From positions 434,001 through 498,000 of the forward strand of contig NZ_AVCJ01000001.1 of the NCBI RefSeq assembly GCF_000743535.1: DNA of 64,000 nucleotides, in the 5' to 3' direction. Positions 10,546 through 17,046 of this stretch are shown here, one piece after another. Positions within the stretch are counted from its first letter, which is position 1. Each line of letters begins with the position of its first letter. The notes below the pieces were generated by a model. That model did no database searches. It was not told the DNA's origin and saw nothing but the letters and a program-made list of their open reading frames with translations. Source of the stretch: Arenimonas donghaensis DSM 18148 = HO3-R19 (GTDB taxonomy: Bacteria > Pseudomonadota > Gammaproteobacteria > Xanthomonadales > Xanthomonadaceae). Made by a program: the position numbers and the translations under genes.

Positions 10546-11094
10546 TCACTCCCAGTCGGCGGAGATCAGCTTCCAGTCGTCGTCTTCCAGGCGCCAGCCC
10601 GTGTTGACCTGGTAGACCTCGGCGCGCTCGGGCAGCCACCTTCCGCCGCCACGGGCGGCCGCCGTGAACCTGACCCGGGCGCGGTCGGCTCCCACCAGTT
10701 CGACGTCCAGCGGCCCCAGCGTCACCCCGACCTCGCGGTTGCGCAGCCAGATCAGGGCCAGGTAGCGCCTGAACCGCTCGCGATCCATCCCGCCCGGGCC
10801 GGCGAAATCCTCCGCGAAGTGCTCGACCAGGCCGGCGCTGTCGCGCGCCTCGGCGGCTTCCTCCATCGCCGAAATCGTCTCGCGCAGGGCCTGTTCCGGC
10901 GGCGTCCGCGAACAGCCCCCGGCGACAACCACGCTCACCGCGGCCAGCGCCGTGAAGACCGCGCGAAACCATACGCGGGCCGCCTTGCCTGACCCCCGAC
11001 GGTATGCTCCAATCGAGCGAATACTCCAATTCCGTTCAGGTGCACGATGCGCCGTGCGGGGAGTGCAGTCATCGGGTATCGAGGGGAAATGCAT
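10546..11094 (-). CDS. Putative lipoprotein, NTF2-like size, start uncertain
   Basis: The frame encodes a hydrophobic segment ([19 protein letters not shown]) ending in a lipobox-like AGGC, then about 120 residues with a charged helix ([20 protein letters not shown]) and strands ending in [12 protein letters not shown]. The shape suggests an exported NTF2-like domain, but I do not recognise a named family. The start is unresolved: the only ATG near a usable position is at 11094, on the same CATG that carries the rpfB start on the other strand, and it would add a 41-residue polar leader. No ATG, GTG or TTG lies in frame between there and the hydrophobic segment. It is convergent with acnA and divergent from rpfB. 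Confidence 0.5.
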
Positions 11095-12775
11095 GGGTTT
11101 CGAACGTCCTTGGCTGGCCAATTATCCGAAGGGCATCGACCCCGAGGTCGACCTGGAGAAATACAGCTCGATCGTCTCGGTGCTGGAGGAATCGTGCCGG
11201 ACCTACCGGGACAATCCCGCCTTCGCCAATTTCGGCAAGCAGCTGACCTACGGCGAGGTCGACAGGCTCAGCACCCAGTTCGCAAACTACCTCCTGCACG
11301 AGCTCAAGCTCAAGAAGGGCGACCGGGTCGCCCTGATGATGCCCAATGTCCTGCAGTACCCGGTCGCCATCTTCGGCGTGCTGCGCGCCGGCCTGACCGT
11401 CGTCAACACCAACCCGATGTACACCGCCCGTGAGCTTCGCCACCAGCTCACCGATTCGGGCGCCAGCGCGATCGTGGTGCTCGAGAATTTCGCCCACGTC
11501 GTCGAGGAAGTCGTCGCCGACACCCCGGTCAAGCAGGTCATCGTCACCGGCGTCGGCGACATGCTTGGTTTCCCCAAGGGCGCGCTGATCAACTTCGTGC
11601 TTCGCCACGTCAAGAAGCAGGTGCCCGACTACGGCCTTCCGGGCCACGTACGGTTCAACGACGCGCTGGCCAAGGGCGCCGGCCAGACCTTGCCGGCCAT
11701 CGAGCTGCGCGGCGAGGACATCGCGTTCCTCCAGTACACCGGCGGCACCACCGGGGTCGCCAAGGGCGCCATGCTGACCCACCGCAACCTGGTGGCCAAC
11801 ATGCAGCAATCGTCCGCGTGGCTGGGAGCCAACGCCACCATGGGCAAGGAGGTGATCATCACCGCCCTGCCGCTCTACCATATCTTCGCGTTGACGGCGA
11901 ACTGCCTGGTCTTCATGAAATTCGGCGGCCTCAACCACCTGATCACCAACCCGCGCGACATGAAGGGGTTCGTGAAGGAACTGCGCGGCATCCCGTTCAC
12001 CGCCATCACCGGCGTGAACACGCTTTTCAACGGACTGCTGAACACGCCCGGGTTCGAGGACGTCGATTTCTCACGCCTGCACCTCACCCTCGGCGGCGGC
12101 ATGGCCGTGCAGCGGGCGGTCGCCGAGCGCTGGAAGAAGGCCACCGGCATCACCCTGGTCGAAGCCTACGGCCTCACCGAGACCTCGCCGGCGGCCTGCA
12201 TCAATCCCATGGACTTGTCCGAATACAACGGCGCCATCGGTCTGCCCATCCCGTCCACGGACGCCTGCGTCAAGGACGATGACGGCAAGATGATGCCGGT
12301 GGGCGAAGTGGGCGAGTTGTGCATCCGTGGCCCGCAGGTCATGGCCGGCTACTGGCAGCGCCCTGAAGAAACCGCCAAGGTGATCGACGCCGATGGCTGG
12401 TTGCACACCGGCGACATGGCCAAGATGGACGAGAAGGGTTTCTTCTACATCGTCGACCGCAAGAAGGACATGATCCTGGTCTCGGGTTTCAACGTGTACC
12501 CGAACGAAGTCGAGGACGTGATCGCACTGATGCCCGGCGTGCTGGAAGTGGCGGCGGTCGGGGTGCCGGACGAAAAATCCGGCGAAGCGGTGAAGGTTGT
12601 CATCGTCAAGAAGGACCCCTCCCTCAGCGCCGACGAGGTGAAGGCCTTCTGCCGCGAGAACCTGACCGGCTACAAGCACCCCCGGTACGTCGAGTTCCGG
12701 GACGAGCTGCCCAAGTCCAACGTCGGCAAGATCCTTCGCCGCGAGCTTCGCGACGGCCCCAAGACCCCGGCCTGA
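11093..12775 (+). CDS. rpfB: Long-chain fatty acyl-CoA ligase RpfB
   Basis: An AMP-forming acyl-CoA synthetase of 560 residues, FadD class. The ATP-binding loop [11 protein letters not shown] is at residues 215-225, followed by [18 protein letters not shown] and the hinge/C-terminal stretch [17 protein letters not shown]; the conserved catalytic Lys region is [14 protein letters not shown] at the end. In Xanthomonas RpfB has FadD activity and turns over DSF-family fatty acids, so here it probably recycles the signal made by the adjacent RpfF. The ATG at 11093 is chosen because it is the family N-terminus (MGFERPWL) and follows GAGGGG. A hairpin separates it from rpfF, so the two may be regulated separately. 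Confidence 0.93.
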
Positions 12776-12916: not shown

Positions 12917-13810
12917 ATGTCAGTCGTCGAAAACATCATCCGCGAGCCCGCCCTCACCCTGGTCGACCACCGCACCGAAGCCGAAGCCGGCATCGAATGG
13001 TGCTTCATGCACCACAAGCCGGCCGCCGGCTACCGCCCCTGTTTCAGTGAACAACTGCTCGTGGACCTGCGCGAATGCCAGCGACAGGTCGCCAATCGCC
13101 TGGCCAACGACCCGGACCAGGCCGGCAACGAAGTCCGCCACCTGGTGCTGGCGTCCCACTCCGACGTCTTCAACCTCGGCGGCGACCTCGAGCTGTTCTC
13201 CCGCCTGATCCGCACCGGTGACCGGGCCCGCCTGCTCGCTTATGCCCAGCTCTGCGTTTCCGTGGCCTTCCATTTCGCCCGCCTGGCCGATGATCGTGTC
13301 CACAGCATCGCGGTGGTCCAGGGCGACGCCCTCGGCGGCGGCTTCGAGGCCGCCCTTTGCTGCCACACGATCATCGCCGAGGAAGGCACCGGCATGGGCT
13401 TCCCGGAAGTCCTGTTCGACCTGTTCCCGGGCATGGGTGCCTATACCTTCCTGTCGCGCCGGGTCACCCCGGCACAGGCCGAACGCATGATGCTCGACGG
13501 CAACGTCTACTCCGCGGAAGACCTGCATCGCATGGGCGTGGTTGATTTCCTGGTCCCGCGCGGCGAAGGCCTGGCCGCGGCCCGCGAACTGGTGCGCCGT
13601 CGCAAGCGCATGGGCAATGCCTTGCGCTCCATGAACACCGTGCGCATGACCTGCAACCCGGTCAGCCTGGACGAACTGATGCGCGTCACCACGACCTGGG
13701 TGGATGCCGCGATGCGTCTTGGCGACCGCGGCCTGCAGACCATGGAGCGCCTCGTGCGCGCCCAGAAGCGCCGCGTGGCGGGTGGCTCGCCGCTGCGCCA
13801 GGTGATCTGA
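12917..13810 (+). CDS. rpfF: DSF synthase RpfF
   Basis: A crotonase-fold enzyme that makes cis-2-unsaturated fatty acid signals (DSF family) from 3-hydroxyacyl-ACP by dehydration and thioesterase steps. The 297-residue product keeps both catalytic acids: Glu144 in GGGFEAALCCHTIIAEEG and Glu164 in GFPEVLFDLFPGMGAY, matching Glu141 and Glu161 of Xanthomonas RpfF. Also diagnostic are SDVFNLGGDLELF (83-95) and DRARLLAYAQLCV. The ATG at 12917 is chosen for the GGAG at 12905 and the family N-terminal length. It is convergent with rpfC, as in Xanthomonas, with a hairpin between them. Confidence 0.96.
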   Translation: MSVVENIIREPALTLVDHRTEAEAGIEWCFMHHKPAAGYRPCFSEQLLVDLRECQRQVANRLANDPDQAGNEVRHLVLASHSDVFNLGGDLELFSRLIRTGDRARLLAYAQLCVSVAFHFARLADDRVHSIAVVQGDALGGGFEAALCCHTIIAEEGTGMGFPEVLFDLFPGMGAYTFLSRRVTPAQAERMMLDGNVYSAEDLHRMGVVDFLVPRGEGLAAARELVRRRKRMGNALRSMNTVRMTCNPVSLDELMRVTTTWVDAAMRLGDRGLQTMERLVRAQKRRVAGGSPLRQVI

Positions 13811-13818
13811 GGATCGCC

Positions 13819-13855
13819 CCGGATGGCCGCCTCGCAAGGGGGGCGGCCATTCCGG
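13819..13855. terminator. Bidirectional terminator between rpfF and rpfC
   Basis: CCGGATGGCCGCC (13819-13831) pairs with GGCGGCCATTCCGG (13842-13855) with one bulged base. It occupies the 52-base gap between the convergent rpfF and rpfC genes. T-runs are lacking on both sides. Confidence 0.6.
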
Positions 13856-13862
13856 CCGGGGC

Positions 13863-15986
13863 TCAGCCCGACTCGTTGTCGGTGGGCCGGCCCTCTTCCC
13901 CTTGCGGCCGTGCAGAAATGCGCGCGACTTCGCTGCGGACCTGGGCAGCCGTGCCCTCGAGCTGGGTACCGATGCTGCCGACGAGGCGGCGCCATTCCTT
14001 GGCCAGCACGGCATCACTTGAACGCATCAGTTCGGCGCTGCGCACCACCAGCGCCTGCGCGCCGAGGTTCTCCGACACGCCCTTGAGTGCGTGCGCGGCC
14101 TCGCGCAGCCCCTCCCAGCGCCCGGACGCCGCGGCCCGCTCGGCTTCGGCCAGGCAACGGCTGGCGTCGCGCAGGCACTGCTCGGAAAAATCCCGAAGGA
14201 ACTGTTTGCCCAGGCCCATGCCGGCCAGCTCCTCGAGCACGTCCGTGCGCAGGCTTGGCAGGCTGTCCTTGCGCTTGGGCGCAGCGGATTCGCCGCCGGC
14301 ACCGCTGGCGATCTCGGCCAGGGTGTCGAGCAAGCGCGCGACCACCACCGGCTTGGTGAGGAAACTGTAGGCGCCCGCGGCCTCGGTATCGCGGACGGCG
14401 TCGACCGTGGCGTCGGCGCTGAGCACGACGATGGGCGTGCGCGTCCCGCCCGCCTGCATCACCCTCGCCTGCTTGATGACCTCGAGCCCGTCGACACCCG
14501 GCATGTGCAGGTCGACGATCGCCGCGTCCAGGGTTTCCGTCTCCAACCGGTCCAGGGCCTGCTCGCCGTTCTCAGCGAACACCGGCTGGTGGCCCGCGCG
14601 CTCGAGCAGTCGCTGCAGGACCAGCCGGTTGGCCGGCTGGTCGTCGGCCACCAGCACACGCATGGGCCGGACCCGGGCCCGGTGGCGCACAAAGGGATCG
14701 TCGAAGGAAATGATCTTGCCCTCGACCGCCTCGGACGCGGACTCGCTGTCGTCCACCACCCGCAGCTCGAGGTCCACCCAGAAATGGGTGCCGCCCCCGG
14801 GGTTGTCCTCGAGGCCGATGCTGCCGCCCAGGAGCTCGGTCAGCGTCTTGGCGATGGTCGTGCCCAGGCCGGTGCCACCAAAACGCCGGGTCGGGCCGCT
14901 GTCCACCTGTTCGAAGGCCTGGAACAGCGTTGCCTTGGCCTTGTCGGGCACGCCGATGCCGGTGTCGCGCACCGAGATGCGCAGCGCCACCTTGTCCTGG
15001 TCCCGGGAGCGCTGCTCCATCGTCAGGCTGACGCCGCCGGCGTCGGTGAACTTGATGGCGTTGTGGGTGAGGTTGAGCAGGATCTGGCCGAGGTGGCCCA
15101 CGTCGCCGTGCAGGCGCGCCGGCACCTGTTCTTGCACGCTGATGTGCAGCTCGAGGTTCTTCTGCGCCGCCATGGGCTGGAGCATCGTCCGGATGCGCCG
15201 GGCCAGTTCCCGGGGCGAGAAGTCGCTGTCCTGCCGCTTGAGCTTGCCGGCTTCGATGGCCGAGATGTCGAGCACGTCCTCGACCAGCAGCAGCAGGGAC
15301 TGCGCCGACGTCTGGATGACGTCCGCGGCTTCCCGCTGCTCGGGCGCCAGGCGCGTGCCCGACAGCAGTTCGGCCATGCCGATGATGCCGTTGAGCGGCG
15401 ACCGGAACTCGTGGCTCATGTTGGCCAGGAACCGGCTCTTGGCGGCGTTGGCGCGCTTGGCCTCCTCGCCGGCGCGGCGCAGGTCGCGCAGCAGGCTGAT
15501 CAGGTAGGCCGGGATGGCGACCAGCCCGACCAGCAGGCCCCAGGCGATGTAGGGGTTCTGTAGCCAGTACGGCGTCGTGAGGATGACCGCCAGGAAGCAG
15601 GCCATGGCCAGGCCGATGGCCGCGAAGAGGTAGGTAGTGCCGTAGCGCAGGCCGTTGCCGACGGTGACCCAGAGGATGATCACGTACAGGGGCGCCAGCA
15701 CCTCGCCCTTGAGCATCATCATCGCGGCCAGGGTGCTGTAGTCGGCCAGCATGCCGACCACCCGTCGCGCATGCGACACCCCGGGCTGCACCACGATCGC
15801 GATCACGATGCCCAGGCCCAGCACGGTTTCGGCGAGCAGGATGAGCACGCTCAGCCGCAGCTCTTCACCTGCCGACTGGCTGCTGGCCAGCCCCGCCAGG
15901 TAGGCGAGCAGGAACCCGGCGATGATCAACCTCACCAGCGCCTGGCCGTGCTCGCTGTCGGGGCGATTGGCGAACGCGCGGATCAT
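13863..15986 (-). CDS. rpfC: DSF sensor hybrid histidine kinase RpfC
   Basis: An inner-membrane hybrid kinase of 707 residues that senses DSF. In order: a short N-terminal sensor segment with DSEH at residues 10-13; about five membrane helices (20-165); HisKA with phosphoacceptor His192 in [12 protein letters not shown]; HATPase with N-box HNAIKF (309) and GTGLGTTIA; a receiver with Asp492 in [10 protein letters not shown] and Lys545; and an Hpt domain with His632 in [13 protein letters not shown]. This is the RpfC architecture of Xanthomonas (about 726 residues there). It follows rpfG by 10 bases. The extra gene rpfH found between them in some Xanthomonas is absent. In Xanthomonas RpfC also binds and restrains RpfF through its receiver. 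Confidence 0.95.
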
Positions 15987-15996
15987 GGCACGGTGA

Positions 15997-17046
15997 TCAG
16001 GGGAGCGCGGGGCCCGGCGCGACCATGCGGAAGACTTCCTCGAGCTGCTCCCTGCGGGCCAGCGCCGCCGAAACGACGGCCGGGTCGAACAGCGTGCCCG
16101 CGCTGTCCTTGATGTGGGCGATGGCGTCTGCGAACGAATGGGCCTCGCGCCAGGTCCGGGGTGATGTCATCGCGTCCAGCACATCGGCCACCGCGACGAT
16201 GCGGGCCGACAGGGGGATGTCTTCGCCCGCCAGGCCCGCCGGATAGCCGCTGCCGTCCCAGCGCTCCTGGTGGCCCAGGGCGATCGCGGCGCCGGTCTGC
16301 ACGAAGCGGCTGCTGCTGCCCGAAAGCAGTTCCTGGCCCAGGGTCGGGTGGCGGCGGACTTCGTCCATCTCGGCGTCGTCGAGCGCCGAGGGCTTGCGCA
16401 GGATGGCGTTGGAAATCGCCAGCTTGCCGATGTCGCGCAGCGGCGCGGCCAGTTCGATCATTCTCACTTCGTCCTCGCCCAGGCCCAGGGCCTCGGCGAT
16501 GAGACCGGCATACCGACCCAGGCGCTCGAAGCTGGCTACCGAGCCGCCGTCGTGGAAGGCCGTGGCCTTGGCCAGGCGATGCAGGATTTCGCGCTCGCGC
16601 TCGTCCAGTTCGTGCATGCGCGCCAGCAGCTGGCGTTCGAGTTCATGCGCGCGGGACTTGAGGTTTTGCTGTTGCTGGCGCAGCGCCAGCAGGTTGCGGC
16701 AGCGCGAGCGCAGTTCGCGCGGGCGCACCGGCTTGACCAGGAAGTCGATGACGCCGGCTTCGAGCGCGGCGTTGCGGATGGGCTCGTCGCCCACCACGGT
16801 GATCAGGATGATCGGCACGTCGCGGTGCGACAGCGGACGTCGGAAGCGGCGGGCGAACTCCAGGCCGTCGAGCTTGGGCATCCGGTAGTCGAGCAGCAGC
16901 AGGTCGGGCGAGCTACGCTGGGACCAGAGCAGGGCCTCGACCGGGTCTCCGAAATCGGTGACCTTCACCTCGGGACTGATGTCCTCCAGCAGATGGCGGA
17001 ACATCGTCCGCTGCGAAGGCTGGTCGTCGACGATCAGTACGTTCAC
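15997..17046 (-). CDS. rpfG: Response regulator RpfG with degenerate HD-GYP domain
   Basis: The partner of RpfC: an N-terminal receiver (acidic pair at 7-8, phospho-Asp53 in LLLLDYRMP, Lys105) and a C-terminal HD-GYP domain, 349 residues. The start is GTG at 17046, after GGGAG. The receiver is intact. The HD-GYP domain aligns end to end with canonical members, but the HD motif reads PLRDIGK (Arg204 for His), the ETGxH motif reads GSVAS (Gly168, Ser172), and HHE reads HQE (Gln260). GYP (267-269), Asp205, His233, His259 and Asp288 remain. Canonical RpfG hydrolyses cyclic-di-GMP; with four of eight metal ligands changed, that activity is probably lost. The H-to-R change needs only one base (CAC to CGC). 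Confidence 0.92.

Follow-up and report, generated by a model that had tools for sequence, protein, structure and literature searches.

RpfG is the best-known link between DSF quorum sensing and the hydrolysis of c-di-GMP. The rpfG gene of Arenimonas donghaensis lies within the window (the whole stretch of DNA that was analysed, 64,000 nucleotides), and the question raised by this locus is whether its product is still a phosphodiesterase or has come to act by other means. A preliminary description had stated that RpfG has lost four of the eight metal ligands of its HD-GYP domain, and had inferred that it cannot hydrolyse c-di-GMP and may act as a binding or scaffold protein. The output of RpfG, hydrolysis or protein contact, differs by species: the HD residues are required for the regulation of extracellular enzymes in X. 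campestris but not for HSAF production and biofilm control in L. enzymogenes.

The gene encodes a protein with a receiver domain followed by an HD-GYP domain, and is located together with rpfF, rpfC and rpfB (Table 1). The receiver retains D7, D8, D53 and K105, and all 31 rows of alignment A1 carry T83, in agreement with the preliminary statement that this domain is intact. The protein groups with the RpfG proteins of Lysobacteraceae in the gene tree, and is 89% identical to that of Arenimonas sp. SCN 70-307, 86% to that of A. malthae, 79% to that of A. daejeonensis and 78% to that of A. composti. Domains of the neighbouring proteins were assigned with Pfam; rpfB, rpfF and rpfC are the names that we take to apply, and the genes adjoining rpfG are presumably lysS and prfB. 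The Glu pair of RpfF (E144, E164) occurs in all 24 rows for which an RpfF was available and the H192/D492/H632 set of RpfC in 25 of 25 rows, the roles of these residues being those that we assume for the two proteins. Upstream of rpfG, the promoter scan yielded a single terminator-like site, on the + strand, and nothing resembling a sigma-70 site.

Table 1. Features of the rpf cluster and of the rpfG product, with positions in the window.
Feature	Position	Strand	Remarks
rpfB	11045..12775	+	AMP-binding acyl-CoA ligase of the rpf cluster; start unrefined
rpfF	12917..13810	+	DSF synthase (enoyl-CoA hydratase family); E144 and E164 both present
rpfC	13863..15986	-	hybrid sensor kinase; presumed phosphorelay residues H192/D492/H632 all present
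rpfG	15997..17046	-	GTG start (17046), 349 aa; REC, stalk helix and HD-GYP (Pfam HD_5)
rpfG receiver domain, residues 1-125	16672..17046	-	D7/D8, phospho-acceptor D53, T83, K105
rpfG stalk helix, residues 109-165	16552..16722	-	predicted (AF2 model)
rpfG HD-GYP domain, residues 150-338	16033..16599	-	probably non-hydrolysing
Gly168 at PmGH E185 position	16543..16545	-	usual state in the family
Ser172 at PmGH H189 position	16531..16533	-
Arg204 for HD-motif His (PmGH H221)	16435..16437	-	codon CGC (16437-16435)
Gln260 at PmGH H277 position	16267..16269	-
rpfG GYP motif, residues 267-269	16240..16248	-

The metal-binding positions were mapped with a gapless phmmer alignment of the window RpfG to PmGH (PDB 4mcw), using the PmGH ligand numbers given in PMC4159591. 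The PmGH ligands E185, H189, H221 and H277 correspond to Gly168, Ser172, Arg204 and Gln260, and D222, H250, H276 and D305 to Asp205, His233, His259 and Asp288. The alignment thus confirms the four substitutions, the CGC codon of Arg204, and the retention of the other four ligands and of the GYP motif, all as previously described. The HD dyad of active HD-GYP phosphodiesterases (HDxGK) reads RDIGK, and in the HHExxDGxGYP motif the first His is kept and the second is Gln.

The residues stood, and the count built on them did not. Among 139 other Lysobacteraceae RpfG proteins, 132 carry Gly and none Glu at position 168, position 172 is Tyr in 94, Phe in 20, Asn in 17, Ser in 3, Trp in 2, His in 2 and Gln in 1, and position 260 is His in 125 and Gln in 14, these 14 having the six core positions defined below intact. 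In RpfG from X. campestris itself, whose HD-GYP domain is the one first shown to be active, Gly replaces E185 and Phe replaces H189 (PMC4159591). By contrast, position 204 is His in all 139, so that in this alignment H204R is the sole change setting the window RpfG apart. The change is common to the RpfG of two other genomes (L034/L005 and L006); its presence in three genomes makes a sequencing error unlikely. The clade is not uniform for the four changes: a sister group (L035, L036, which is A. malthae, and L009) shares Ser172 and Gln260 and keeps H204. His at position 172 occurs in 11 of 22 clade members (L037, L014, L011, L013, L041 and others) versus 2 of the 139, and the H189-equivalent ligand has therefore been kept or regained while others were lost.

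Hydrolysis has likely been lost in the window RpfG, because of H204R and not because four ligands went. In PmGH, the H221A mutation essentially abolishes activity, whereas E185A and D305A leave residual activity (PMC4159591). The equivalent L. enzymogenes residue is H190, which, like position 204, lies 63 residues before the GYP Gly; the H190A variant is described as having its activity 'almost abolished' in one report (PMC8463545) and 'significantly attenuated' in another (PMC9758175). The conclusion of the preliminary description is thus retained as a probable one, on different grounds. Alternatively, the enzyme might work through an unusual mono- or binuclear site that includes Arg204 and Gln260, with some hydrolysis of c-di-GMP. 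D205, K208, H233, H259 and D288 all remain and might form a partial metal site that retains some activity. The attenuated H190A variant, the residual activity of PmGH E185A and D305A, the activity of X. campestris RpfG despite the replacement of two of the eight ligands by Gly and Phe, and the occurrence of Gln260 in otherwise intact proteins all speak in favour of this alternative. The near-inactivity of PmGH H221A and, in the first report, of H190A, the invariance of H204 in the 139 proteins and the loss of further residues in sibling lineages make a still-active enzyme unlikely.

We analyzed the distribution of these losses in the family. RpfG matches were found in 188 family genomes, of which 161 were taken and 27 left out; with six further genomes of the genus, 207 loci gave 170 distinct RpfG-like proteins. 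The 169-row gene tree omits the partial L281, in which the six positions are intact, and was built with the trait columns included; two of its rows carry an in-frame stop that was left unmended (L044 at codon 345, L021 at codon 9). Six core positions were scored (H204, D205, K208, H233, H259 and D288), K208 being included because its PmGH equivalent, K225, is as important to activity as the ligands (PMC4159591). The window RpfG belongs to a clade of 22 distinct proteins, which comprises the RpfG of 18 genomes of its genus and L041, L114, L115 and L116 from four other genus codes.

At least one core position is altered in 14 of the 22 clade members, corresponding to 11 of the 18 genus genomes, and in none of the 139 other Lysobacteraceae proteins or the seven outgroup rows. 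One protein outside the clade and the 139, L042, carries H204Y. All six positions are kept in the other 8 clade members, A. daejeonensis RpfG among those with an intact set. The sibling lineages show D205G, H233Y, H259Y and D288Q, with H233Y being the change carried by A. composti, and the minimum numbers of changes on the 169-row tree are four for H204 (one of them in L042), three each for K208 and H233, and one each for D205, H259 and D288. A tree of the flanking genes without rpfG (lysS, prfB and rpfB; 25 rows; its outgroup is not clean) gave identical counts. The HD His was lost separately in the window trio, which reads RD, and in the G011/G015 pair, which reads RG; for the trio, support is 98 in the gene tree, and the flank tree gives 88/78 (unstarred). 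The clade accounts for 33% of the summed HD-GYP tree length and for all 12 changes, with none in the 139 (P about 1.5e-6 in a simple length-share model that ignores tree and count uncertainty, 12 being our own reading of the minimum counts). The pattern across the clade, as read from these sequences, is one in which different lineages have lost different catalytic residues.

No rpf-type RpfG was detected in 9 of 27 genus genomes, several of the nine being incomplete. In G024 (L021/L152), one of the 11 altered genomes, codon 9 of the rpfG-like gene is an in-frame stop; the gene lies near a contig end, in an assembly with 9% contamination.

The GYP motif is kept in all 22 clade members and all 139 other proteins. 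In PmGH, the GYP residues, I294, R314 and K317 are implicated in c-di-GMP recognition (PMC4159591); in the clade, the equivalents are I277 in 22 of 22 members, R297 in 21 of 22, and R300 as Arg in 15 and Lys in 7. An AF2 model of the window RpfG, computed from the 31-row alignment, shows a REC fold, a helix spanning residues 109-165 and an HD-GYP domain, with a mean pLDDT of 90.8 and a pTM of 0.65. The pLDDT per 10-residue block is 85-98 over residues 171-340, weaker at 161-170 (76) and poor at 341-349 (55).

The two domains of RpfG evolve very differently in 14 Arenimonas genomes. Their mean identity is 0.993 for the receiver and 0.722 for the HD-GYP domain, and residues 2-125 are identical in 55 of 91 pairs; the stalk is also conserved, at a mean identity of at least 0.93 up to residue 160. 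Invariant positions number 120 of 124 in the receiver, compared with a mean of 72.9 and a maximum of 88 in random 14-sets from the other, more diverged 139, and 77 of 189 in the HD-GYP domain, for which such sets give a mean of 85.7 and a range of 64-110. The summed branch lengths of HD-GYP domain and receiver are 2.46 and 0.11 in the 14, and 16.42 and 11.88 in the 139. Maximum-likelihood omega values are 0.004 for the receiver and 0.072 for the HD-GYP domain, with 0.049 for lysS, 0.040 for prfB and 0.055 for rpfB. A value of 1.000 for the linker, from 24 codons, was discarded, as the fit appears to have failed. The NG86 dN/dS estimates (HD-GYP 0.41, REC 0.013, lysS 0.21) are much above the ML values, perhaps as a result of codon bias at high GC, and follow the same order. 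Rest-of-family dN/dS means were taken from 3000 random pairs, and gapped rows were dropped there as in the omega groups (5/7, 10/12, 10/11, 14/15 and 17/20 rows used; L021 excluded). Receiver dS (0.33) resembles that of lysS (0.37) and prfB (0.30), and dN alone is depressed. An overlapping gene is an unlikely cause of the frozen receiver: one antisense frame stays open over codons 2-159 in all 14 genomes, but synonymous change is free.

A candidate explanation for this contrast is that the receiver is itself the output, docking on a number of partners or on RpfC variants brought in by swapping, with the HD-GYP domain aiding dimerisation only. In a PhoB-type regulator from the same 14 genomes, omega is 0.033 in the receiver and 0.032 in the effector domain (this regulator was read from an internal Met, and its receiver is without the first residues), so the RpfG receiver is much the more constrained of the two, and the conserved stalk and the near identity of the receiver beside three types of rpfF-rpfC cassette (see below) fit the same idea. 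On the other hand, RpfC is the sole known receiver partner here, the kept c-di-GMP-contact residues are left unexplained, and strong receiver conservation is found elsewhere. Four other RpfG clades have omega values of 0.009-0.031 for receivers and 0.031-0.054 for HD-GYP domains, so the contrast is partly general and Arenimonas is its extreme. The outer clade members, several of which have likewise lost catalytic residues, by contrast lack the frozen receiver (REC 0.075, HD-GYP 0.115; 5 of 7 rows used); the two features are therefore not coupled across the clade. We regard the receiver-only output as doubtful.

The HD-GYP domain, for its part, does not seem to be drifting; it has apparently been retained for a task that is not hydrolysis or that asks less of the domain than hydrolysis does. 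Its omega exceeds that of lysS by a factor of only about 1.5, and is 0.052 both in the seven genomes with intact and in the seven with altered core positions; ligand loss thus left no extra mark, and the relaxation is not a sequel to it. In all 14 genomes the match is free of in-frame stops. An output domain degenerating because DSF signalling via RpfG no longer matters would be in line with the recurrent catalytic losses, the lower identity of the HD-GYP domain relative to the receiver, the genus genomes without an rpf-type RpfG, incomplete as several are, and the early stop in the L021 row, a MAG. Neutral decay is, however, unsupported by the omega values, and drift is hard to reconcile with the 77 invariant HD-GYP positions, the GYP motif in every clade member, the intact RpfF and RpfC residues and a receiver under tighter constraint than lysS or prfB, which leaves it improbable.

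The rpfF and rpfC genes behave differently from their neighbours. Across the 14 core genomes, rpfF-rpfC (12917-15986 in the window; L133-L145) is of three types, with RpfF 80-94%, 52-55% or 36% and RpfC 75-88%, 53-55% or 28% identical to those of the window, whereas rpfB (81-92%), rpfG (77-90%) and lysS (78-92%) are conserved beside all three. In this genus, rpfF-rpfC is apparently a swapped cassette, and its types resemble the rpf-1/rpf-2 variants reported for S. maltophilia (PMC4517397). The RpfC match of A. daejeonensis (L138) stops at residue 640 of 707, unlike those of near relatives, and may reflect a truncation or a frameshift. Since the cassettes abut the 3' end of rpfG, the HD-GYP end might have travelled with them and given the contrast between the domains, which is very improbable given that window and A. 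malthae group are 53% identical in RpfC yet 77-78% in the HD-GYP domain with S172 and Q260 shared, that gene and flank trees agree on the relevant groups, and that a receiver dS like that of the flanking genes also disfavours recombination as the cause of the frozen receiver.

The window genome contains matches to 42 GGDEF, 15 EAL, 3 HD_5 and 3 PilZ domains. It is therefore rich in c-di-GMP signalling, and EAL proteins could carry out hydrolysis. Only one of its three HD_5 proteins, the GAF-type L001, has intact HD, HH and GYP motifs, which are likewise intact in 14 of 14 copies aligned at at least 45% identity. The third (L003; copies L360-L373) lacks the HD His in all 15 copies, of which 14 have Leu and one has Met at that position, and nine of the 15 carry Met in place of the Lys. 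A second RpfG-like protein that takes over is thus not among the HD_5 matches, which besides RpfG are the GAF-type protein and the protein without the HD His. Y_Y_Y proteins gave four matches, two of them above the cut-off, and no wsp gene was recognised beside one REC-GGDEF gene (C34) from the 60 N-terminal residues of the adjacent ORFs.

Taken together, the window protein is a true RpfG whose rpfB-rpfF-rpfC-rpfG cluster is intact, and we consider it probable that it acts as a DSF-gated, non-hydrolysing adaptor or c-di-GMP receptor. In this scheme, RpfF would make DSF, and RpfC would sense it and phosphorylate Asp53 of RpfG, as suggested by their intact residues. The HD-GYP domain, folded according to the model, would probably be unable to hold the metal centre or to hydrolyse c-di-GMP. 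The output would be non-enzymatic: receiver and stalk may reposition the HD-GYP domains, which could then bind a GGDEF protein via the GYP loop, bind c-di-GMP, or act through contacts of receiver and stalk. The binding or scaffold role proposed in the preliminary description is strengthened by the kept GYP and contact residues, the RpfC and RpfF residues, the modelled fold, the purifying selection and the repeated loss. For the clade, a release of RpfG from phosphodiesterase duty may be envisaged. We propose only tentatively that Arenimonas and its neighbours have uncoupled DSF from c-di-GMP breakdown, that RpfG became a pseudoenzyme, a DSF-gated non-hydrolysing c-di-GMP receptor or GGDEF adaptor, via independent losses that struck different catalytic residues, and that a new, exacting protein contact locked receiver and stalk in the core genus. 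A clade with repeated losses and close sister species that keep the residues offers matched natural pairs in which the two outputs of RpfG can be separated.

Inactive HD-GYP proteins and phosphodiesterase-independent RpfG are already known. A natural, repeated catalytic loss within RpfG appears to be new, in that no description was found in the limited collection of RpfG and HD-GYP literature searched. The adaptor or receptor is the most likely reading in view of two precedents, the L. enzymogenes H190A variant and DvhD of Desulfovibrio vulgaris. L. enzymogenes RpfG is from the same family and has a DSF system, and its regulatory role survives the mutation: the H190A variant still restores HSAF production (PMC8463545), represses biofilm and binds WspR (PMC9758175). 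The Kd for WspR is 0.2 uM for H190A compared with 0.15 uM, and binding occurs via HD-GYP, not REC (PMC9758175), which leaves the frozen REC of Arenimonas unexplained. The wild-type L. enzymogenes protein is, as described there, an active phosphodiesterase, whereas the loss in the window lineage is natural and recurs in the clade. X. campestris RpfG resembles the window protein in its domain order, Gly at E185, a non-His residue at H189, the GYP motif and the rpfF/rpfC cluster. It differs at the HD His, which is Arg in the window; H/D-to-Ala variants of the X. campestris protein do not restore extracellular enzyme synthesis (PMC3749722), and the independence of RpfG from phosphodiesterase activity is therefore not general.

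DvhD, with SQ for HD and MN for HH, binds c-di-GMP without hydrolysing it, no metal being seen, and its stalk helices are splayed in the c-di-GMP-bound form (PMC13090378). Like the window RpfG it combines lost metal ligands with a stalk helix before the HD-GYP domain. Unlike that response regulator, which has fewer losses, it is described as a membrane PAS-HD-GYP receptor. Finally, Bd1817 of Bdellovibrio, reported as a catalytically inactive HD-GYP protein, is matched by the predicted inactivity of the window RpfG, with the reverse disposition of residues: Bd1817 has a binuclear iron centre and lacks the GYP Tyr, whereas the window RpfG keeps the Tyr and has lost the HD ligand (PMC4159591).
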